Positions 2,596-22,375 of a DNA stretch of 23,697 nucleotides are shown piece by piece. This DNA comes from a virus. The first letter of the stretch is position 1. Each line of letters opens with the position of its first letter. Under the pieces are notes generated by a model. It did not search any database, had not been told where the DNA came from, and saw nothing but the letters and a program-made list of their open reading frames with translations. The DNA is taken from IMG/VR virus record IMGVR_UViG_3300044993_000263, positions 1-23,697 of that record; one strand, written 5' to 3'. Both the position numbers and the translations under genes were made by a program.

Positions 2596-2624
2596 CAAAA
2601 ATTAAGGGGCCGAAGCCCCTTAAT
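2596..2624 (-). terminator. Rho-independent terminator with TTCG tetraloop
   Basis: ATTAAGGGGC-CGAA-GCCCCTTAAT (2601-2624) forms a 10-bp stem with a stable TTCG loop on the minus strand, followed by a T run. The TAA stop of the gene at 2620-3069 lies inside the stem. Confidence 0.9.
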
Positions 2625-3069
2625 TAATTCGGTATAGCTTGCTGCGGTCAAGGTCAAAAGACTCAACCTGGACATATTCGATCCTTTCAAAGTACCCTGC
2701 ACCGGGATTGTACAGACTTACCTTGCGACCAAAATCGTCAACAAACTTAAACGAAAACTTATTAGGATTTTCCTGAATCATTTTAGCAATAGTGCGTGCA
2801 GCGATTTTATCCGCAGTGCAGTGAATGATGCTGATTCTTCCTTCTTCATGCCCGAAGCTATCACCGCTGCTGTAAATCATATACACAACATACACAGTCT
2901 CAGCTTCATCGGGAAGCAAGAACGTCTCCGACATATACGGTGCTTCTTCATCTTCTCCCAAAATATACACCCGCTCAATCGAAGAGTCATAGCTTGCCGA
3001 CCACTCTCCCGTCTCACCGTCACTGTGCGAATGGACGCAGTTTTCATCATAACTTACGCAAACACGCAT
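2620..3069 (-). CDS. Hypothetical protein, paralog of the gene at 1985-2443 (149 aa)
   Basis: I place the start at the ATG at 3069 (MRVCVSYDENC), not at the longer frame from 3126. CAGGAGAACAAGT gives an ideal ribosome site, the MRVC start matches the paralog, and the longer version would run through the promoter. The product is acidic and soluble-looking. Shared blocks with the paralog include SETFLLPD, VYVVY, SGDSFG, RISIIHCTA, FVDDFGR and GYFERIE. It has its own promoter (3094-3122) and terminator (2596-2624), making a single-gene unit. No family is recognised and no catalytic motif stands out; the conserved HC in IIHCT and the FVDDFGR block are the best candidates for functional residues. 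Confidence 0.82.
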   Translation of the reverse strand: MRVCVSYDENCVHSHSDGETGEWSASYDSSIERVYILGEDEEAPYMSETFLLPDEAETVYVVYMIYSSGDSFGHEEGRISIIHCTADKIAARTIAKMIQENPNKFSFKFVDDFGRKVSLYNPGAGYFERIEYVQVESFDLDRSKLYRIN

Positions 3070-3093
3070 ACTTGTTCTCCTGTCTATAGAAGA

Positions 3094-3122
3094 CATATAG
3101 CAAGCTGGATTGCGTTTGTCAA
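3094..3122 (-). promoter_or_regulatory. Sigma70-like promoter, TTGACA-17-TATATG
   Basis: -35 TTGACA (3117-3122) and -10 TATATG (3094-3099) on the minus strand with 17 bases between. It drives the gene at 2620-3069. The TGA stop of the upstream 92-aa gene (3119-3121) is part of the -35 box. Confidence 0.75.
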
Positions 3123-3397
3123 CCACTATTTTTGTTTTTATTGCATGGATTATTTACAAAGTCGTAAAGCTGCTGCGCAGTATCAAGAATTTGTTCCAAC
3201 CCCGGAAACTGAGGAATAGTGACGTTGGTTACTATTTCTCCTGTTTCCGCCTTTTTGCATTCAAATTCCCATCCTGCCATCTTTGCTTTGTATTCTTCTA
3301 GAACTAGCTGGCTAGCCAGCCCTAGAATATCCGACCTGATTTCATATCCATTTTTATTTGTGTTGACTTTAAAATCAAAGTTCTTATAATTATGCAT
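3119..3397 (-). CDS. Conserved small phage protein, 92 aa, function unknown
   Basis: The 92-residue product contains FDFKVNTNKNGYEIRSDILG (residues 7-26), then a helix (LASQLVLEEYKAKMAGWEFE), a charged turn (KKAETGEIVTNV), and PGLEQILDTAQQLYDFVN. This layout, with YEIR.D.L..A..LV.EEY, looks like a small protein common in T4-like phages whose role is not known to me. The C-terminal tail (NPCNKNKNSG) is polar. Its stop codon TGA is embedded in the next promoter. No strong ribosome site precedes the ATG, so it may be read by coupling or from a weak site. A deleted second copy lies at 2496-2593. Confidence 0.75.
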   Translation of the reverse strand: MHNYKNFDFKVNTNKNGYEIRSDILGLASQLVLEEYKAKMAGWEFECKKAETGEIVTNVTIPQFPGLEQILDTAQQLYDFVNNPCNKNKNSG

Positions 3398-7362: not shown

Positions 7363-7800
7363 TTATCCTAATTTAAATAGATCATTACCGAACACTATTG
7401 GTTCACCAAAACTATAATTATACGTAAGCCCATCTGCACATACTATATTTTTATTTACAATATATCTTAATTCCTCATGACCACACAACAACCGTTCTCT
7501 ACACAAGTCTACGTTGTCTTGCATTATGTCTACACCGTATATAGTAGACAATGCTGTAGGAAAGTCAATGCCATTTTCTAATTTTCTTATCAAGATTTCG
7601 CTAAGAAATTGACCATCTCCGCAAGCCGGATCCAAGAAGGTTTTAGTCGGGTCTCTGAATAATTCTTGGGGGAGTTGGTCAAGTATCTCCTGAACGAGCG
7701 GAGTTGGAGTGAAAACTTCTCCCGTTTGTTTCACTCTTAGTTTGTCTCGGTCTACGCCAGACATATAACTACGTTCTCTTAAATGCTTTATATAATTCAT
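7363..7800 (-). CDS. SAM-binding half of a split N6-adenine DNA methyltransferase (145 aa)
   Basis: I place the start at the ATG at 7800 (MNYIKHLRERS), which forms an ATGA overlap with the stop of the 7797-8591 gene; a longer frame begins at 7848. The product holds only the N-terminal half of an Eco57I-like gamma-type adenine methyltransferase: TGEVFTPTPLVQEILD (26-41), motif I FLDPACGDGQFL (55-66) that binds S-adenosylmethionine, the acidic D91 in YGVDIM, and CADGL (121-125). Catalytic motif IV (NPPF) is absent. The protein stops after FKLG, exactly where MKFDVVVGNPPF would be expected to follow. That segment begins the gene just upstream. The two products probably act together or derive from one split gene. 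Confidence 0.82.
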   Translation of the reverse strand: MNYIKHLRERSYMSGVDRDKLRVKQTGEVFTPTPLVQEILDQLPQELFRDPTKTFLDPACGDGQFLSEILIRKLENGIDFPTALSTIYGVDIMQDNVDLCRERLLCGHEELRYIVNKNIVCADGLTYNYSFGEPIVFGNDLFKLG

Positions 7801-8591
7801 TTTATTTGTTCTTCTATATAAGCTATTTCTTCTGTAGTTAAGTTCCATTCAATAGGATATTCAAACCCGGTTTTTATTTGATTAAGGTCAAATTTTTTGA
7901 TATTTGCCGGCATGCCTGCATGGCTGTTGCCCTTCATTTTTGTGGTAAAATACCTAAATGCCTTGTTATTAATAGTAAATAGCTTAAGTTTTTCTGCTTC
8001 TTCTAAAGTGCGGGTAGAGATATATCTAACACATCCCGCTAATAAAGGTTTATCAGTAACAGTATATGACTTTATTGATTCTAACATAGTAAAGGCAAAT
8101 TTAGGCCCATACACTACTTTTCTTGTATCAGTTACATCTGCATATTCTTCCGGGGTCTCTCCATTTAATTTTACCAACACTGTGTTACCGGTAGGCAATA
8201 CCAAATTGGATCTTCTATTTTGCATTAATGAAGAATATTGTGTCTTAACATTAAATTCGTTATTTCCTACTATTTTACAAATAATGGGATCGGCTATCGT
8301 ATATTCACTAATTTTAGGAGAATTCTTGCCTATAAAATAAAGAGTATTATAATTCCAATAATCAATGCTTGTCATGTAGTTTATTAAGTCGATTTGCTTG
8401 TTGAGTTTTGTTAATGTATTGATTACATTCTTGAGAGTGATTAAGGCAACGATGCCGTTTGGTTTACATACCTCAAAAGCTTTAGAGACAAACCTACGAT
8501 ATAAAGTTTTATTTCCTATTGTTCCTGATATGCCTCCTTTTTCTGTCACGCTATTAAATGGAGGATTTCCCACTACTACATCGAATTTCAT
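7797..8591 (-). CDS. Catalytic/target-recognition half of a split adenine DNA methyltransferase (264 aa)
   Basis: The protein begins directly at motif IV: MKFDVVVGNPPF, in which NPPF (9-12) is the catalytic signature of N6-adenine methyltransferases. Typical follow-on elements are present (SKAFEVCKPNGIVALIT, a core strand and helix), then a long region that should recognise the DNA target, and a C-terminal helix (NLTTEEIAYIEEQIK). SAM-binding motif I is missing and lies in the next gene, 7363-7800, giving a permuted gene order. The ATG overlaps the stop of the 8588-9106 gene (ATGA). The first 40 bases are almost identical to DNA at about 9391-9432. Alternatively it is an inactive relic, but the 264-codon frame is intact. 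Confidence 0.8.
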   Translation of the reverse strand: MKFDVVVGNPPFNSVTEKGGISGTIGNKTLYRRFVSKAFEVCKPNGIVALITLKNVINTLTKLNKQIDLINYMTSIDYWNYNTLYFIGKNSPKISEYTIADPIICKIVGNNEFNVKTQYSSLMQNRRSNLVLPTGNTVLVKLNGETPEEYADVTDTRKVVYGPKFAFTMLESIKSYTVTDKPLLAGCVRYISTRTLEEAEKLKLFTINNKAFRYFTTKMKGNSHAGMPANIKKFDLNQIKTGFEYPIEWNLTTEEIAYIEEQIK

Positions 8592-9106
8592 CCCAAATTA
8601 TCTCCCAATCCATAATAGTCGGGTATGCAACGCAATATTTCTTGATATTCAGTATCAGTAATACCAAAATGTTCACAAAGCATCTTGTCATTCCATATTC
8701 GGTCGAATGGAACAATGGGAATGGCCCTCAATTCGCCCATATGATTATTACCGTTAAATTTGTAAATAGAAAGTGCAAAGCGGGCAACGAATGACTTCAA
8801 GTAACTAACAAGACTATCCTTCTCGTAAGTAAAGATAGCAAGACCATAATCATGATTTTTAGATACTGTCCAATAAGAACTTATTGGCGAAATTACTGAA
8901 TAAAAGTCTTGCATTCCCATATGCCCTCTTATCTTTTGAATATAGAATTTTTCCGTATTTAAGTCAGATGTTACTAAATCTTGTAAAGTTCCAAAGTCAT
9001 TACACGCTTTGAGTATCTTCTTTGTTAATGAACCATATATAGTTAAGTCCATTCCGATTTTGTTCACTAGAGATATATCTACGTCGTACGAAGGAGCACT
9101 ACCCAT
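8588..9106 (-). CDS. Target-recognition/C-terminal part of a second, frameshifted methyltransferase (172 aa)
   Basis: The first residues, GSAPSYDVDISLVNKIGMDL, continue the sense of the preceding out-of-frame segment, which ends GKLDKYI. The ORF is therefore the 3' part of a larger methyltransferase rather than a complete protein. It carries no methyltransferase catalytic motif. It does carry the C-terminal pattern seen in this family (IVPFDRIWNDKMLCEHFGIT followed by a hydrophobic helix) and the middle SVISPISSYWTVS, as expected for a recognition domain. Its stop overlaps the next gene (ATGA). The ATG has no strong ribosome site. It could still be made as a separate recognition subunit; more simply it is part of the pseudogene at 9079-9593. 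Confidence 0.6.
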   Translation of the reverse strand: MGSAPSYDVDISLVNKIGMDLTIYGSLTKKILKACNDFGTLQDLVTSDLNTEKFYIQKIRGHMGMQDFYSVISPISSYWTVSKNHDYGLAIFTYEKDSLVSYLKSFVARFALSIYKFNGNNHMGELRAIPIVPFDRIWNDKMLCEHFGITDTEYQEILRCIPDYYGLGDNLG

Positions 9107-9593
9107 ATATATTTGTCAAGTTTTCCGAAATTATCTTTTATTTTTTGAAGAGTAGTAATAGCCAAATCTGTGAAAATTTCGGCGTTTTCAAATATACTTC
9201 CAGAAACAATCTCTACCGAAGTTTTATATTTTTTTACGTTTTCAAGCATCTTTTTTGAGTGAGTGCGAATATTCTCTTTCTTGTTTTGATATGGAGTAGC
9301 GGGCTGAATAAAAGTGACCCACCCGCCATCTTTAACCAGAACTACTGCTTTATTAAAAAACGCTGGCGTAGTTCTGCCTTTCCCTTAAAGGGAGGATTCC
9401 CCACTACTACATCAAATTTCATTCCTATATTATCCTTAATGAAATTAATTGTAGCATAATTATCAACCAATTTAAATTTATTTATTGCACAATTTATCCA
9501 TATTTGGTTATTTTTATAATCAAACACCCGGCCGGTGATATTTTTGTCATTATGACCATACTTGCGCAGCCTAGATTCAATTATAGAAACAAA
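9079..9593 (-). pseudogene. Frameshifted 5' part of a second adenine methyltransferase catalytic half
   Basis: From 9593 the frame reads FVSIIESRLRKYGHNDKNIT, then YKNNQIWINCAINKF and DNIGMKFDVVVGNPPFKG, which contains motif IV; it soon ends in TAG. In another frame the protein sense continues: GRTTPAFFNKAVVLVKDGGW, FIQPATPYQNKKENIR, VEIVSGSIFENAEIFTDLA and GKLDKYI, ending at 9079. The third piece is the ORF at 8588-9106. Two frame changes therefore break one catalytic-plus-recognition half, which also lacks motif I. The three frames are seen directly; former unity is inferred. Sequencing error is an alternative explanation for each shift. Confidence 0.7.
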
Positions 9594-15540: not shown

Positions 15541-16338
15541 TTAAGTTCCCCAAGCATTCCCAAATAAAGGTAAGTGCAATCTATCACTATAACGGATACC
15601 GTTCTTTAGCGCTATTTCTGCTACTTTGCGATTATTAAGTTTATACACCTCTTCAACACCCCCTACTGGCATAAAATAAATTGGCCCTTTAAAACCGGCG
15701 TCACGATATTCTTTTATCACTTCAAACGCTTCATTAGCATCATCTTCTGTTGCAATAACAAATTTAAGATAAGTATAACCAACTTTCTCATAAAATGCTA
15801 TTATTTCGGGTTTAATAGCATGTTCTTTTTTTTCACCAGAACAACTTAGTTTGGGACTAACTGAAAAAGTAACTTCGCGTTTAAACCCTAAATTTGAGGT
15901 AGAAGAAGACCATTCTTTTAAATATTCTGCTAATACGGATATAAGAGGCTGTGTTCCGTTAGTTTCAAAAGTTATTTCCTTAAGTCCAGCCATTTTGGGA
16001 TGATTTAATAAATTAGGATAAACCTTTTGCCATCCTAAAAGTGGTTCACCCCCTGTAATAACCAAATGTTCATCTCTCCATTCATTGAATGGAAGCAAAT
16101 CCATGATTTCATTAACAATAGTATCAATATCTTTAAAGGGAGATAAATGCTTAAAACGAGGATCCCAAGAGGCGTAACTGTCGCAACCTGTTTTAACTAA
16201 CGGTAGCTGATCATAACTATTATATTTGTTAACATCAATATTAAATCTTTCTTGTGAAAGCTCACCTTTTTTCATTCCAAATCCGCTACATGTAAAATTA
16301 CACCCGAAAGTTCTTAAAAATATACTGGGAACTCCCAT
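15541..16338 (-). CDS. queE: 7-carboxy-7-deazaguanine synthase QueE-like radical SAM enzyme
   Basis: QueE converts 6-carboxytetrahydropterin to 7-carboxy-7-deazaguanine using an iron-sulfur cluster and SAM. The frame from MGVPSIFLRTFGCNFTCSGF carries C13 and C17 of the CxxxC pair and, after a 34-residue insert, C52 in GCDSYASWDPRF; canonical QueE has CxxxCxxCD. GGEP (96-99), the SAM-binding motif, follows, then ETNGTQPL and SVSPKLSCSGE. The true start is probably an ATG at 16417: bases upstream encode IQGEGRY in this frame, the expected QueE N-terminus, but a 16-base homopolymer at 16362-16377 throws the ATG out of frame. The internal Met start given here is a minimum. A GAAGG eight bases before that ATG might allow internal initiation. 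Confidence 0.88.
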   Translation of the reverse strand: MGVPSIFLRTFGCNFTCSGFGMKKGELSQERFNIDVNKYNSYDQLPLVKTGCDSYASWDPRFKHLSPFKDIDTIVNEIMDLLPFNEWRDEHLVITGGEPLLGWQKVYPNLLNHPKMAGLKEITFETNGTQPLISVLAEYLKEWSSSTSNLGFKREVTFSVSPKLSCSGEKKEHAIKPEIIAFYEKVGYTYLKFVIATEDDANEAFEVIKEYRDAGFKGPIYFMPVGGVEEVYKLNNRKVAEIALKNGIRYSDRLHLPLFGNAWGT

Positions 16339-16417
16339 GTAACGGCCTTCACCCTGGATTGAAAAAAAAAAAAAAAAGTTCTGAAACCTTGATCCGGTTC
16401 AGTTCATTACTATTCAT
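16339..16417 (-). pseudogene. queE: Out-of-frame 5' end of queE
   Basis: An ATG at 16417 preceded by AAGGAAATTAAAA starts MNSNELNRIKVSEL, the expected N-terminal strand of a phage QueE, then runs into 16 T. Reading through gives repeated Phe, then NPG and a stop. In the other frame, just after the T run, the codons read IQGEGRYMGVPS, the canonical QueE substrate-contact segment joined to the downstream ORF. The two halves would be in frame with 15 or 18 T. Confidence 0.8.
16362..16377 (-). repeat. Homopolymer tract, 16 T on the coding strand
   Basis: Sixteen consecutive A on the plus strand (T on the coding strand) inside the 5' end of queE. The tract sets the reading frame; length changes by replication or transcription slippage would switch queE on or off. 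Sequencing or amplification error at such a tract is also common. Confidence 0.95.
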
Positions 16418-16432
16418 TTTTAATTTCCTTTT

Positions 16433-17725
16433 TTATTTTTTTAAAGAACTAGCTTTAATAAATTTTTCTATATCTATGATTTCATACTCATTTTTTACTA
16501 GTTCCCATTCATATATGTTAATATTTTTTTCTTTTCCTGTCAAGATATTTTTTGCTCTAAACATATATGAATGTGAACCCAAACTAAGATGTATATTTGG
16601 ATCAAACTTATCTTTTTCTATTTGTTGTCTTATTCCAGTATTTTTATCTATTACATTAATCTTTCCTTTATTTGGACCGGTATATCTATCTCGGTTATTA
16701 TTCCATTCTTCTTCTGTAAGTTGCACATACTTGCCAGTTAACGTATCATAAACTGTTCTTAAACCCTGCGTGTGACCCGAATAATTGCCGTTATTAAATT
16801 CTTGTTTAGTTATTAATTTTGACTTGCCATCATTATCTTTTACTAAAACCTTTCCTTTTGTGGATGTGATATATCTTTTCGGATCGTCTAAATATTCTTT
16901 TCTATCAATAATTCTTGTTTGTTTTGAAATTGTATCATAAACTTTCACAGTATTTGCATTACAATGAATATATTTTCCTGTTCGGTATTCTTCTTTACTT
17001 ACCCATACTGTTTCACCAGTATCATCAATACATTTTATTTTATGTTCTATAAGTTGTTTATATTTTTTGTATCCCGCTTCTTTGTTTAACTTTTTTGCTT
17101 CAGATTTAGTAATTTTTATTACTTCATTTGTTTCAACATTTATGAATCTATAAGTAGATTTGAACGGATTAATTTCGCCCCCGCCAATTCCTGGACCTAC
17201 ATTAGGTATATATCTGTCTTTATTATTGTAGTAATCTTCTTTGAAAATTGAAACATGTTTTTTAGATTGTTTGTCATATACTACCACACGACCGGAGGTA
17301 TGAAATTTTATATCATCTTGTTGCTTATATCTTTGTTTTGACATAACAATTACATTACCAGAATCATCCTTAAGATATACTTTATCTACGTTTTGTGTTT
17401 TAAACCAATTATAAAAAGAAGATTTTAATGTTTCATACACTCTACTAGGTATTGGTTTAAATCCTTCTTTATTGGTATTTTTATTACACATTTGTAAGAA
17501 AGCACTTTCTAAAGAACGATTCTCTGGATAGGCTTTCCACAACAGCCAGTGTGCTAAATGATGTTCTCTTAATGTAAGAGTTATTAGATTGTCTGGTTCA
17601 TCTGAACCATTAAGACATTTGGGAATTATATGATGTTTTTCAGTATAACTGGTAAGATTCCTATTACTATTTTTGATAGAAGTTATAAATTTATCATATC
17701 TGTTTTTATAATGATAATTTATCAT
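16433..17725 (-). CDS. HNH homing endonuclease with tandem C-terminal repeats (430 aa)
   Basis: Residues 29-67 form the HNH nuclease core: EKHHIIPKCLNGSDEPDN, then LITLTLREHHLAHWLLWKAYP, with H31/H32, N47 and H55/H56/H59 as candidate catalytic and metal residues. From about residue 113 to the end lie some nine degenerate repeats of about 33 residues, each like (K)V.D..(T/S)G....I(S/T)KEE(Y/F)..(G/N)(K/R)Y. They probably bind DNA along an extended target. A free-standing gene between queE and the phosphoribosyltransferase gene is the classic position of a mobile homing endonuclease that cuts a neighbouring gene in rival phages. Expression appears restricted to late times by a hairpin at 17724-17766 with a late promoter in its loop. 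Confidence 0.88.
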   Translation of the reverse strand: MINYHYKNRYDKFITSIKNSNRNLTSYTEKHHIIPKCLNGSDEPDNLITLTLREHHLAHWLLWKAYPENRSLESAFLQMCNKNTNKEGFKPIPSRVYETLKSSFYNWFKTQNVDKVYLKDDSGNVIVMSKQRYKQQDDIKFHTSGRVVVYDKQSKKHVSIFKEDYYNNKDRYIPNVGPGIGGGEINPFKSTYRFINVETNEVIKITKSEAKKLNKEAGYKKYKQLIEHKIKCIDDTGETVWVSKEEYRTGKYIHCNANTVKVYDTISKQTRIIDRKEYLDDPKRYITSTKGKVLVKDNDGKSKLITKQEFNNGNYSGHTQGLRTVYDTLTGKYVQLTEEEWNNNRDRYTGPNKGKINVIDKNTGIRQQIEKDKFDPNIHLSLGSHSYMFRAKNILTGKEKNINIYEWELVKNEYEIIDIEKFIKASSLKK

Positions 17726-17838: not shown

Positions 17839-18417
17839 TTATCCAAAATTTACACCTGAATTACAAGAATGATCTTTCCACCATTCTTCCCAAGGAAATA
17901 TTGCCCATTGAGGAATTTCTTCTTTATTAATACCTTCTGAATAAAAATCTATTGGAAAGTTGCAAGCTTCGTTGTAAACAAGAGAAGCAAATTTAACATT
18001 ATTATGCCAAACACTATTCCAAGCTTCTTTTTCATCAGGAAAACAACAATTCATCCAATCATTCTTTATCCAATCAAATGTCTCACCTTGGTCCACAATA
18101 TCATCTATAATTAGAATATTTTTTCTTTTAGAAATATCCCATCTGGTATAAACAATTTGTCTTTCTTTTGAATTGATATAGCCAAATGCTTCTTTTGCCA
18201 TCCAACATTTGCTTTCGCCAAAACTCTCATCTTTAAGACTTATTTTTAAAGTTTCCATTGGAATGTCAAAATAATGACTAATATATAAAGCAGGAATTAA
18301 CCCCCCTCTAGTTATTCCTACTACATAATCTGGTAGCCAATTGGAAAGTATGATGGCTCTAATTATATCATGAACCATTCCATCTATATCTTTATCACTA
18401 TAATAAACGTCTATCAT
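17839..18417 (-). CDS. Purine-type phosphoribosyltransferase (192 aa)
   Basis: The PRPP-binding loop is ILIIDDIVDQGETF (101-114 from the chosen start), close to the type I consensus with two Asp and a DxGxT turn; here the turn is DQGET. An upstream GITRGGLIPALYIS (34-47) is the PPi-loop, typical of xanthine/guanine and related phosphoribosyltransferases. I choose the ATG at 18417 (MIDVYYSDKDIDGM) because AAAGGAAATAAC precedes it; the frame from 18450 would only translate the ribosome-site sequence. The exact base is uncertain. With folE, guaC and queD/E nearby it may recycle guanine or a 7-deazaguanine base, or feed GTP for FolE; this is inference. Confidence 0.82.
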   Translation of the reverse strand: MIDVYYSDKDIDGMVHDIIRAIILSNWLPDYVVGITRGGLIPALYISHYFDIPMETLKISLKDESFGESKCWMAKEAFGYINSKERQIVYTRWDISKRKNILIIDDIVDQGETFDWIKNDWMNCCFPDEKEAWNSVWHNNVKFASLVYNEACNFPIDFYSEGINKEEIPQWAIFPWEEWWKDHSCNSGVNFG

Positions 18418-18456
18418 GTTATTTCCTTTGCCCCCCTGATTTTTTTTCATTAATAG

Positions 18457-18954
18457 TTATCCCAACAAATTCTCGTTCCACTCTCTATGACCCTCTCTAA
18501 AAGCCATATTACTTTGTGTTTCTCTTACTTCAACTCTGTAACACCAAAGTCTATCTGCTTCACCTTTTCCCCAATGGTCAGGAATATATACTCCATTTAC
18601 ATATCGATAAAGCATATCCGCAATGGCTTCACACCCTGTTGCAGGAACAATTGTCAATTTTGCTAATTTTTTTTCCTGGAGCAATTTAAATGTTTCTAAT
18701 TCAGGATCATCTTCACTTACCAATAATGTATGATCAAACTGTTCTTCAAGAATAGCCTTTAAATCTCTTAAACCACCATAATCAGCACACCAATTTCTTG
18801 CGTCTAACGTGTCTGCGCCAAAATAAAATTTAAAACTAAAACTATAGCCATGAATTAAATTGCAATGACTGTCTGCTCTCCATTGACGATATGCGCAAGG
18901 AAAAGCATCATGATATTCTTTAGTTGAAGTATACTTATAAGTTACAGGCAACAT
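18457..18954 (-). CDS. queD: QueD-like 6-carboxytetrahydropterin synthase (165 aa)
   Basis: Converts dihydroneopterin triphosphate, the FolE product, to 6-carboxytetrahydropterin. Family features: SHCNLIHGYSFSFKF (29-43), where C31 fits the catalytic Cys and H35 a zinc ligand; DYGGLRDLKAILEE (58-71); FDHTLL (73-78) with the catalytic His; VPATGCEAIADML (103-115); and VEVRET (141-146) with the substrate-binding Glu. The usual HGH zinc pair is HGY here (Y37), so a third ligand must come from elsewhere, perhaps C20 or H15. Length is above the roughly 120 aa of E. coli QueD, in line with a separate phage/proteobacterial branch. It stands before the phosphoribosyltransferase gene and after a TATAAATA late promoter. 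Confidence 0.87.
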   Translation of the reverse strand: MLPVTYKYTSTKEYHDAFPCAYRQWRADSHCNLIHGYSFSFKFYFGADTLDARNWCADYGGLRDLKAILEEQFDHTLLVSEDDPELETFKLLQEKKLAKLTIVPATGCEAIADMLYRYVNGVYIPDHWGKGEADRLWCYRVEVRETQSNMAFREGHREWNENLLG

Positions 18955-20549: not shown

Positions 20550-21227
20550 TTATTTTCCTAGTCTAGCTATACTCAAAAATTCATTTCTAGCTGCCGGATC
20601 GGTCTTAAAACCCCCGCCCAATTTGGTAGTCACTGTAACTGAACCAGTATCTTCAACTCCTCTAGAAGCTACGCAATAATGTTTAGCTTGAATCATTACG
20701 GCTACATTTTCAGTATCTAAAATGTAACATAGAGCATGGAAAATTTGTTCGGTTAATCTTTCTTGTATCTGCGGTCTTTTTGCAAAATATTCCACTATTC
20801 TATTAATCTTTGAAAGTCCTAATACCTTTTTATTTGGAACATACGCAACCGTGGCTAGACCATCAATGGTAACAAAGTGATGTTCGCAATTACTCATGAC
20901 AATAATATTACGTGCCACTACCATTTCGTCATAATTCATTTTATTTTCAACGGTAGTGCATTTAGGGAAGGCTTCATAATCTAACCCCCAAAAAATCTCA
21001 GTTACATACATTTTAGCAACTCTTTTGGGAGTTTCAGCCAGGCTATCGTCACTAAGGTCAAGCCCTAATGCTTCCATAATATCTGCAAATTTTTGTTGAA
21101 TTATTTCAATTTTAGTGGTTCTATTTAACTTATTATCAATAATAGGAGTTTCAACTCCCTTTTTTACTAAATATTCATGAACTTTGCGACCTAACTCTGG
21201 ATCACATTTATTTTTATTAAATGACAT
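20550..21227 (-). CDS. folE: GTP cyclohydrolase I FolE (225 aa)
   Basis: Catalyses GTP to 7,8-dihydroneopterin triphosphate, the entry step for tetrahydrofolate and for 7-deazaguanines. The zinc site is complete: C114 and H117 in NCEHHF (with H116 as the catalytic His) and C185 in AKHYCVASRGVEDTGS; H183 and the RGV-x-D-x-GS substrate block are present. LSKINRIVEYFAKRPQIQERL (138-158) is the pterin/GTP-pocket helix region. Length matches the roughly 222 aa of E. coli FolE. AAAGGATAAAAA gives a good ribosome site. With queD and queE in the window, the context supports a deazaguanine rather than a folate role. Confidence 0.95.
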   Translation of the reverse strand: MSFNKNKCDPELGRKVHEYLVKKGVETPIIDNKLNRTTKIEIIQQKFADIMEALGLDLSDDSLAETPKRVAKMYVTEIFWGLDYEAFPKCTTVENKMNYDEMVVARNIIVMSNCEHHFVTIDGLATVAYVPNKKVLGLSKINRIVEYFAKRPQIQERLTEQIFHALCYILDTENVAVMIQAKHYCVASRGVEDTGSVTVTTKLGGGFKTDPAARNEFLSIARLGK

Positions 21228-21310: not shown

Positions 21311-22375
21311 TCACTTAACAAACACGTCATTAAATTGTTTATTGACCTTTATAAAAGTAGTTTTATCATAAAGTTCTGAAAGGTTCTTTGCGCCAACATA
21401 TGTACAGGTGCTTCTAATTCCGCCAAGCAAATTTTTTATGGTATTTTCAACTGGTCCTTTATATTCTACTTCTACTGTTCTGCCTTCACTACTACGATAA
21501 TCTGCTACACCTCCGTGATGCTTTTTCATTGCCGTATCACTACTCATGCCATAAAATTGAACTCTTTTGACAGTGTTTAAAATTACATCATTATTTTCTG
21601 AATAATAACCGGATGAAGTTGTTCTTGTAATTATTTCTCCCCCACCCTCATCATGTCCTGCAAACATAGAGCCCAACATGACAAAATCTGCGCCTGCACC
21701 GAATGCTTTTGAAACATCCCCAGGACAGGTGCATCCTCCATCTGAAACCAAATGTGCTCCTAATTGATGAACTACTTCTCTGCACTCCATTACTGCTGAT
21801 AATTGAGGATATCCTATACCTGTTTGTATCCTAGTAGTGCATACTGCTCCTGAACCAATTCCAATTTTAACAATATCAGCACCGGCGTTAATTACCATTT
21901 GTGCCATTTCGGGAGTCACTACATTCCCTGCCATAATAGTGATTCTAGTCTTGTATTTTTCTCTTACCTTAGAAATATAATTTAAAAAATGTTGACTATA
22001 ACCATTTGCAACATCAATACATACAAATTTTACTTCTTCTGAAAAATCTAAAATTTTTTTCAATCTTTCATAATCTTCTTTATTTGTTCCTGTGCTAATA
22101 ATATAATTGTTGTTTAAAGATGGGTTTGGTAATTTGTCTTCGGTTTTTACTATACAAGTAAGCATATTATACTTAGCCAATGCTTCTACCATTTGTATAG
22201 TTCCAACTCCATCCATATTTGATGCTATTATAGGAATCCCGGTCCAAGTGTGACCTGAGTGTTTAAAGGTATAGGTTACATTTAAATTGACATCTTTTCT
22301 ACTCTTTAGTGTTGAATACTTTGGTTTAATTAAAACATTATTAAAATCAAGTTTTGTATCTTCTTCAATTTTCAT
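21311..22375 (-). CDS. guaC: GMP reductase GuaC-like enzyme (354 aa)
   Basis: A TIM-barrel IMP dehydrogenase/GMP reductase family enzyme. The active-site loop IGIGSGAVCTTRIQTGIGYP (171-190) holds catalytic C179. SDGGCTCPGDVSKAFGAGAD (211-230) and FVMLGSMFAGHDEGG bind the phosphate. GGVADYRSSEGRTVEVEYKG and GGIRSTCTYVGAKNL match GMP reductase rather than IMP dehydrogenase, and there is no CBS domain insertion. It would reduce GMP to IMP and ammonia with NADPH. Length is close to the 347 aa of E. coli GuaC. AAGGAATTAAC provides the ribosome site. In this phage it may adjust guanine versus adenine pools while GTP goes to FolE, which is an inference. Confidence 0.93.
   Translation of the reverse strand: MKIEEDTKLDFNNVLIKPKYSTLKSRKDVNLNVTYTFKHSGHTWTGIPIIASNMDGVGTIQMVEALAKYNMLTCIVKTEDKLPNPSLNNNYIISTGTNKEDYERLKKILDFSEEVKFVCIDVANGYSQHFLNYISKVREKYKTRITIMAGNVVTPEMAQMVINAGADIVKIGIGSGAVCTTRIQTGIGYPQLSAVMECREVVHQLGAHLVSDGGCTCPGDVSKAFGAGADFVMLGSMFAGHDEGGGEIITRTTSSGYYSENNDVILNTVKRVQFYGMSSDTAMKKHHGGVADYRSSEGRTVEVEYKGPVENTIKNLLGGIRSTCTYVGAKNLSELYDKTTFIKVNKQFNDVFVK

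Follow-up and report, generated by a model that had tools for sequence, protein, structure and literature searches.

A predicted homing endonuclease gene, an RNA hairpin and a long T tract recur together at the 5' end of phage queE genes

Introduction

In phage T4, Bonocora and colleagues are said to have described in 2011 (PNAS, doi 10.1073/pnas.1107633108) a "mobile DNA cassette" made up of the HNH endonuclease gene mobA and the 50-nt bypass element of gene 60. To our knowledge, this gene 60 cassette is treated as nearly unique. The mobA/gene 60 bypass system is dealt with in two reviews (PMC5009743, PMC3014915), and free-standing homing endonuclease genes of T4 tend to adjoin conserved genes, with co-conversion of the flanking sequences (PMC2988022). 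Bacterial RNA polymerase slips efficiently on nine A or T, and a stem-loop located 5' of a T-containing motif can drive slippage, with features resembling those of a terminator (PMC5009743). In the IS630 element of Roseiflexus (Penno et al. 2015, via PMC5009743), such a nascent, terminator-like RNA hairpin lies 5'-adjacent to the T-containing motif and is needed to join two frames. Homopolymers of at least nine in dnaX of Thermus thermophilus and in genes of Buchnera and Blochmannia give rise to mRNAs of mixed length and to some in-frame product (PMC5009743). Homopolymers near the 5' end of an open reading frame, polymorphic in length, are also found at the phase-variable loci of Neisseria and Campylobacter.

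The queE locus described here resembles T4 mobA/gene 60 in several respects: a conserved phage gene is immediately preceded by a free-standing HNH gene, its 5' coding part holds an insert that breaks the frame and comes with an RNA stem-loop, relatives free of the endonuclease gene lack the insert (here, eight of eight endonuclease-linked lineages against 80 endonuclease-free queE genes), the insert would presumably shield the gene from its endonuclease, and the product would be made from two out-of-frame parts. It differs in that the T4 insert is a 50-nt gap, whereas that of queE is a run of 11 to 20 T of drifting length, and in its decoding, which is ribosome bypassing in T4 and would be polymerase slippage in queE. 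The queE type occurs in numerous lineages and is associated with endonucleases of two families, its target being queE or a purN-like gene instead of a topoisomerase gene; the T4 cassette is described as mobile, and mobility of the queE cassette is a proposal drawn from sequence. Take-off and landing codons of bypassing are absent from queE, which carries a pure T run and no gap flanked by matching codons, so that the locus may work like T4 mobA/gene 60 but is not a member of that class.

The other systems are alike in part. As in stem-loop-stimulated slippage, the queE hairpin lies directly 5' of the motif; the Roseiflexus motif is T5C5 with one precise deletion, whereas in queE the T run is long and pure and would slip even with no hairpin. 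The Thermus, Buchnera and Blochmannia genes, unlike queE, have no homing endonuclease and no cassette site recurring across many genomes. From the Neisseria and Campylobacter loci queE is set apart by its mostly out-of-frame, stable lengths, by its linkage to a hairpin and an endonuclease, and by being a phage metabolic gene.

Results and Discussion

The window, that is, the whole analysed stretch of 23,697 nt, is a 23.7-kb phage contig from IMG/VR whose genes include folE (20550–21227; PF01227), queD of the 7-deazaguanine pathway (18457–18954; PF01242, phrog_2389) and queE, all on the minus strand. On the same strand, a phosphoribosyltransferase gene (17839–18450; PF00156) is the upstream neighbour of a predicted HNH homing endonuclease gene of 430 aa (16433–17725; phrog_655, E = 1.4e-32) with an N-terminal HNH domain and a repeat-rich C-terminal part. 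It is followed by queE, the product of which we take to be 7-carboxy-7-deazaguanine synthase. Read directly from the minus strand, queE begins with AAGGA-AATTAAAA-ATG (16430–16415), comprising the ribosome-binding site AAGGA (16426–16430) and the start codon ATG (16417–16415), and continues with MNSNELNRIKVSEL, a tract of 16 T (16377–16362; A16 on the plus strand) and CAATCCAGGGTGAAGGC, which encodes (S)IQGEG in a different frame. The 5' frame as encoded, MNSNELNRIKVSELFFFFFNPG, extends from 16417 to a stop at 16349, and its IK[VI/L]SE is conserved among relatives. The second frame, (S)IQGEGRYMGVPS..., forms the queE body (15541–16361, minus strand, with the stop at 15541) and encodes a QueE-like radical SAM protein (phrog_2076, E = 4.9e-46); PF04055, the radical SAM signature and the QGEG and TGGEP motifs in the alignment agree with an assignment to the phage type of QueE. 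The tract overwrites the highly conserved ELFYSIQGEG codons, replacing those of F-Y-S, and sets the frame off by +1. An RNA hairpin, CTGAACC-GGATCAA-GG(T)TTCAG (16381–16402, minus strand; −6.6 kcal/mol), ends 3 nt short of it. Rfam gave no match anywhere in the window and hence no known intron or riboswitch.

The original prediction, made from this stretch alone, of a queE frame split by the tract and preceded by a good ribosome-binding site was thus correct, as was its statement that 15 or 18 T would join the two frames; 9 or 12 T would do so as well. The spacing of the residues in E-L-F-Y-S-I-QGEG does not vary among the 80 nearest relatives and is nearly the same in known phage QueEs. This puts the canonical length at 9 T-equivalents; the tract of the window exceeds it by about 7 nt and is thus an expansion instead of a slip by one base. 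The next-longest homopolymers in the window are of 8 nt, and 909 kb of related loci contained no other run of at least 10 apart from the T15 that the sister phage L090 has in this position of queE. The T16 of the window is far above chance expectation.

A pattern scan (T10, 2–8 bases, CARGGNGARGG) of 2.9 million viral contigs in IMG/VR returned 16 further contigs, and in all 16 the match was the same queE site, with T11 to T20 in seven lineages besides the window. T11 was found in two lineages (L101/L112 and L104/L106/L111/L113), T12 (L108, L109, L110, L115) and T13 (L103, L116) in one, T14 (L102) and T20 (L107) in one each, and T15 in two (L105, L114), making a total of eight with the T16 of the window. 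The sister phage L090/L105, which has T15, shares 72% QueE identity with the window. When flanking bases are counted, the T15 tracts of two lineages are the only ones in frame (two of nine alleles); offsets of both signs occur, and no lineage was observed in both states. About 82 related queE genes carry no tract. Among IMG/VR relatives found by alignment query, all 80 at 62–72% identity read E-L-F-Y-S-[I/V/L]-QGEG with no tract; a single-protein search of IMG/VR yielded no close relatives, and a search with exact flanks and a variable gap found the same phage in no other sample. The four matches to the tract pattern in bacterial genomes, none of them in queE, were taken as chance. In L126 (2167–2202), queE carries an in-frame T8, reads SETFFSLQGEG with Y changed to F, and has no endonuclease; it was set aside as a different thing and is possibly a precursor state of the tract.

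Homopolymers longer than about 12 are error-prone, and the sister phage L090 has an in-frame T15. Short-read assemblies can miscount long T runs by ±1, so T15 versus T16 in the window is uncertain; a one-base error in the window contig alone is possible and would leave the finding unchanged. That the frame break as such is an assembly or sequencing artefact, the true queE being in frame, is nevertheless very unlikely. Sixteen other contigs have long tracts at this site, and elsewhere in 2.94 Mb of phage records such tracts appear only in a second endonuclease-linked case; moreover, six contigs have an out-of-frame T11, a length that short-read data usually give correctly. The four contigs of one T11 lineage are 2–5 SNPs apart and the two of the other 13 SNPs apart, in both cases with no indels, which indicates that T11, although out of frame, is stably kept and does not come from random miscounting. 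Runs of at least 12 T or A were present in 11 of 30 phage records (2.94 Mb), one per record and always at the start of an endonuclease-linked gene. The assembly error that the original prediction had named as a possible objection finds no support, since independent assemblies of relatives carry T11 to T20.

The tract had also been proposed to make queE phase-variable, in which case replication slippage would turn queE, and thus DNA modification, ON or OFF between phage generations. Tract lengths do differ between lineages, and T12 versus T13 is the sole indel between two 12.3-kb contigs with 99.9% identity, which points to a drifting length. Both of these lengths are out of frame, however, as are seven of the nine alleles, and the OFF state of T11 is fixed in two lineages though queE is under purifying selection. 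Moreover, T runs this long slip during transcription anyway (PMC5009743) and would give mixed-frame transcripts at any length, making a poor switch, and phase variation leaves the endonuclease linkage and the hairpin unexplained. The variability of the tract therefore stands, but simple ON/OFF phase variation is improbable and less likely than the cassette reading set out below.

Downstream of out-of-frame tracts QueE is intact, with pN/pS values of 0.27–0.37 (0.27 for the queE body of the window against its sister L105). Between the tract and the internal Met, differences in QGEGRYMGVPS are mostly synonymous, and in the L120 lineage the internal ATG is replaced by GTT. Given this replacement and purifying selection on either side of the tract, the QueE product very probably joins both frames. 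QueE could instead start at the internal ATG (16338), which has GGTGAAGG 7 nt upstream, leaving the tract as 5' untranslated sequence; the protein would then lack QGEG, a motif that every relative retains, and both the mostly synonymous change of the codons before this ATG and the GTT of the L120 lineage speak against it, so that we consider such a start extremely unlikely. Nor do the relatives begin at the internal Met, a concern voiced earlier: all 80 carry the full N-terminus.

Two features that the original prediction did not mention travel with the tract: the homing endonuclease gene just upstream of queE and the hairpin next to the T run. As judged from its domains, the window gene is a predicted HNH homing endonuclease of phrog_655. 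The catalytic residues H31, H32, N46 and H55 are invariant across six relatives, and the gene has the marks of a free-standing mob-type endonuclease: an HNH motif, a C-terminal DNA-binding part, a position beside a conserved gene and no Rfam intron. All contigs returned by a search with this protein carry the tract, the full-length family being found only beside tract-bearing queE. An HNH gene or its C-terminal remnant lies directly upstream in all eight tract lineages (12 of 12 tract loci tested). Of the tract-free queE genes for which 300 nt or more of upstream sequence was available, 78 in all, none has one; counted by lineage, the association gives a Fisher p of 2e-11. In three lineages only a C-terminal stub is present, of 114 aa (L121–L125), 35 aa (L101/L112) and about 39 aa (L104/L113), and hairpin and tract persist at loci where the gene is reduced to such a remnant. 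Comparison of L120 (6001–7263) with L121–L125 (98.7–99.8% identical) revealed a clean internal HNH deletion of about 0.96 kb that leaves a 114-codon stub; to judge by these alignments, it is endonuclease decay in progress. Among isolated phages, the HNH protein was matched only weakly (30%, C-terminal part only) and the GIY-YIG enzyme described below had no relative, so that these searches gave no cultured example.

A hairpin is located 0–3 nt 5' of the T run in all eight tract lineages versus 2 of 80 tract-free queE genes. It occupies the codons for (S/N)(K/N)-IK-VSE, and its stability is modest across lineages (−3 to −8 kcal/mol); randomisation of synonymous codons matches the observed stability at p = 0.002–0.06 per lineage (p = 0.007 in the window). 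In the five lineages of equal hairpin length, three pairs display double-sided (compensatory) changes with 90% pairing, which collapses if the partner strand is slid. The Ser codons in tract-bearing queE are TCN, whereas tract-free queE mostly uses AGY or TCA. On these comparisons, the hairpin sequence is tuned for pairing despite its coding role. Shuffle z-scores of single sequences for hairpin plus tract were near zero, and dinucleotide shuffles are uninformative here because the shuffled sequences pair with the U run. A simple terminator scan did not call the queE site, probably owing to the bulge of the hairpin and its A/T-rich stem. The modest stability, the near-zero z-scores and the missing terminator call weigh against the explanation favoured below.

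The placement of a hairpin 0–3 nt before a long T run is, in all lineages, that of an intrinsic terminator, and it stays in place where the endonuclease gene has been lost. The element might hence be a terminator or attenuator that ends the endonuclease transcript and lowers queE, its effect on the frame being incidental. We regard this as unlikely, as the site falls after the queE start codon and inside conserved codons, 8 T would suffice where 11–20 are observed, and the out-of-frame lengths would still need correction downstream, queE being under selection.

Among 80 loci with an HNH domain, the only other run of at least 10 was found in L187/L189, a second, independent case, where T12 lies at codons 11–14 of a gene for a purN-like formyltransferase (PF00551). 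Directly before this gene, and overlapping its start, is a gene for a GIY-YIG endonuclease (PF01541, with a score below the cut-off), and a UCCAA/UUGGA hairpin stands just 5' of the T12 (L187, 4635–5949). Flavobacterium phage immuto (L211) is 88% identical over the purN-like gene and has neither the endonuclease nor the hairpin with T12, in place of which it reads GTAGCATTTTTTAGT; immuto has GTAGCATTTTTTAGTCAAACA where L187 has ATAGTTTTTTTTTTTTCACAAACA. The flanks of both phages are continuous up to the point where about 870 nt of L187 take the place of 12 nt, so endonuclease, hairpin and T run seem to have arrived together. The T12 of L187 is in frame and needs no correction, which counts against the explanation that we favour.

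Across the compared queE contigs, then, a predicted HNH gene, a predicted hairpin and a tract of T11 to T20 recur together at the 5' end, at in-frame and out-of-frame lengths. We consider it reasonably likely that the three form a cassette resembling T4 mobA/gene 60 bypass, in which slippage makes the rewritten start tolerable; the linkage is read from the sequences, and the remaining steps are what we infer. The endonuclease would recognise the conserved queE start in phages without the endonuclease gene, and repair would copy this gene together with the rewritten start into the recipient phage, whose new hairpin/T site would escape cutting and so confer immunity. The hairpin would pause RNA polymerase over an rU:dA hybrid, the polymerase would slip and produce mRNAs of mixed U number, about one third of them in frame, and queE would stay expressed whatever the tract length. 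The tract outlasts the endonuclease gene, a C-terminal stub being left in three lineages. The earlier views of the tract as a slippage site and of a share of transcripts being corrected both gain ground, as bacterial polymerase slips on nine A or T (PMC5009743), with slippage at queE itself being predicted.

Ribosomal slippage on the U run may contribute. Ribosomes are known to slip on U UUU UUU, and the queE offset could be met by −1 or +1 shifts, perhaps aided by the 5' hairpin. As a replacement for transcriptional slippage, we give it little credence, because +1 and −1 offsets share the same architecture, which fits a mechanism indifferent to length better than a shift of fixed direction, and because stimulators of −1 shifting usually lie 3' of the slippery site.

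How the cassette came to its present distribution is less clear-cut. On the QueE tree the tract requires 4–5 changes, but a topology that groups all tract alleles in one clade is not rejected (AU p = 0.32), and a single ancient acquisition followed by losses is compatible with the trees; spread of the queE cassette by homing thus remains a proposal. Tentatively, homing endonucleases of at least two families, HNH and GIY-YIG, may carry a portable hairpin and poly-T module that overwrites the conserved start of the target gene, destroys the cleavage site and leaves the gene expressible via RNA polymerase slippage. If so, a mobile element would be rendered harmless through transcriptional slippage, as introns are through splicing, and the pairing of a homing endonuclease with an insert tolerated by recoding would appear as a strategy that recurs, slippage taking the place that splicing or bypassing has elsewhere. 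Tracts of T11 to T20 with adjoining hairpins would offer natural, recurrent slippage sites for study, and many phage "pseudogenes" at homopolymers may work. At queE, an enzyme of 7-deazaguanine DNA modification, which is anti-restriction (PMC6884629), would be placed under a slippage-dependent step.

Several other features of these contigs were recorded. No DpdA/TGT was found in nine contigs, mostly fragments, by a search run with no phage-type positive control. In the window, a run of adenine-methyltransferase-like fragments, overlapping and split, in which a MKFDVVVGNPPF motif is repeated (7363–9527, minus strand) may be a methyltransferase gene that is broken or duplicated, or else a further recoded gene. 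Two tandem paralogous ORFs with no function assigned (MRVC[IV].Y.E...) are located at 1985–2443 and 2620–3126 (minus strand). An IMPDH/GMP reductase-like gene (21311–22375, minus strand), which has relatives of its own in phage contigs, adjoins folE and likely serves purine supply for the 7-deazaguanine pathway.
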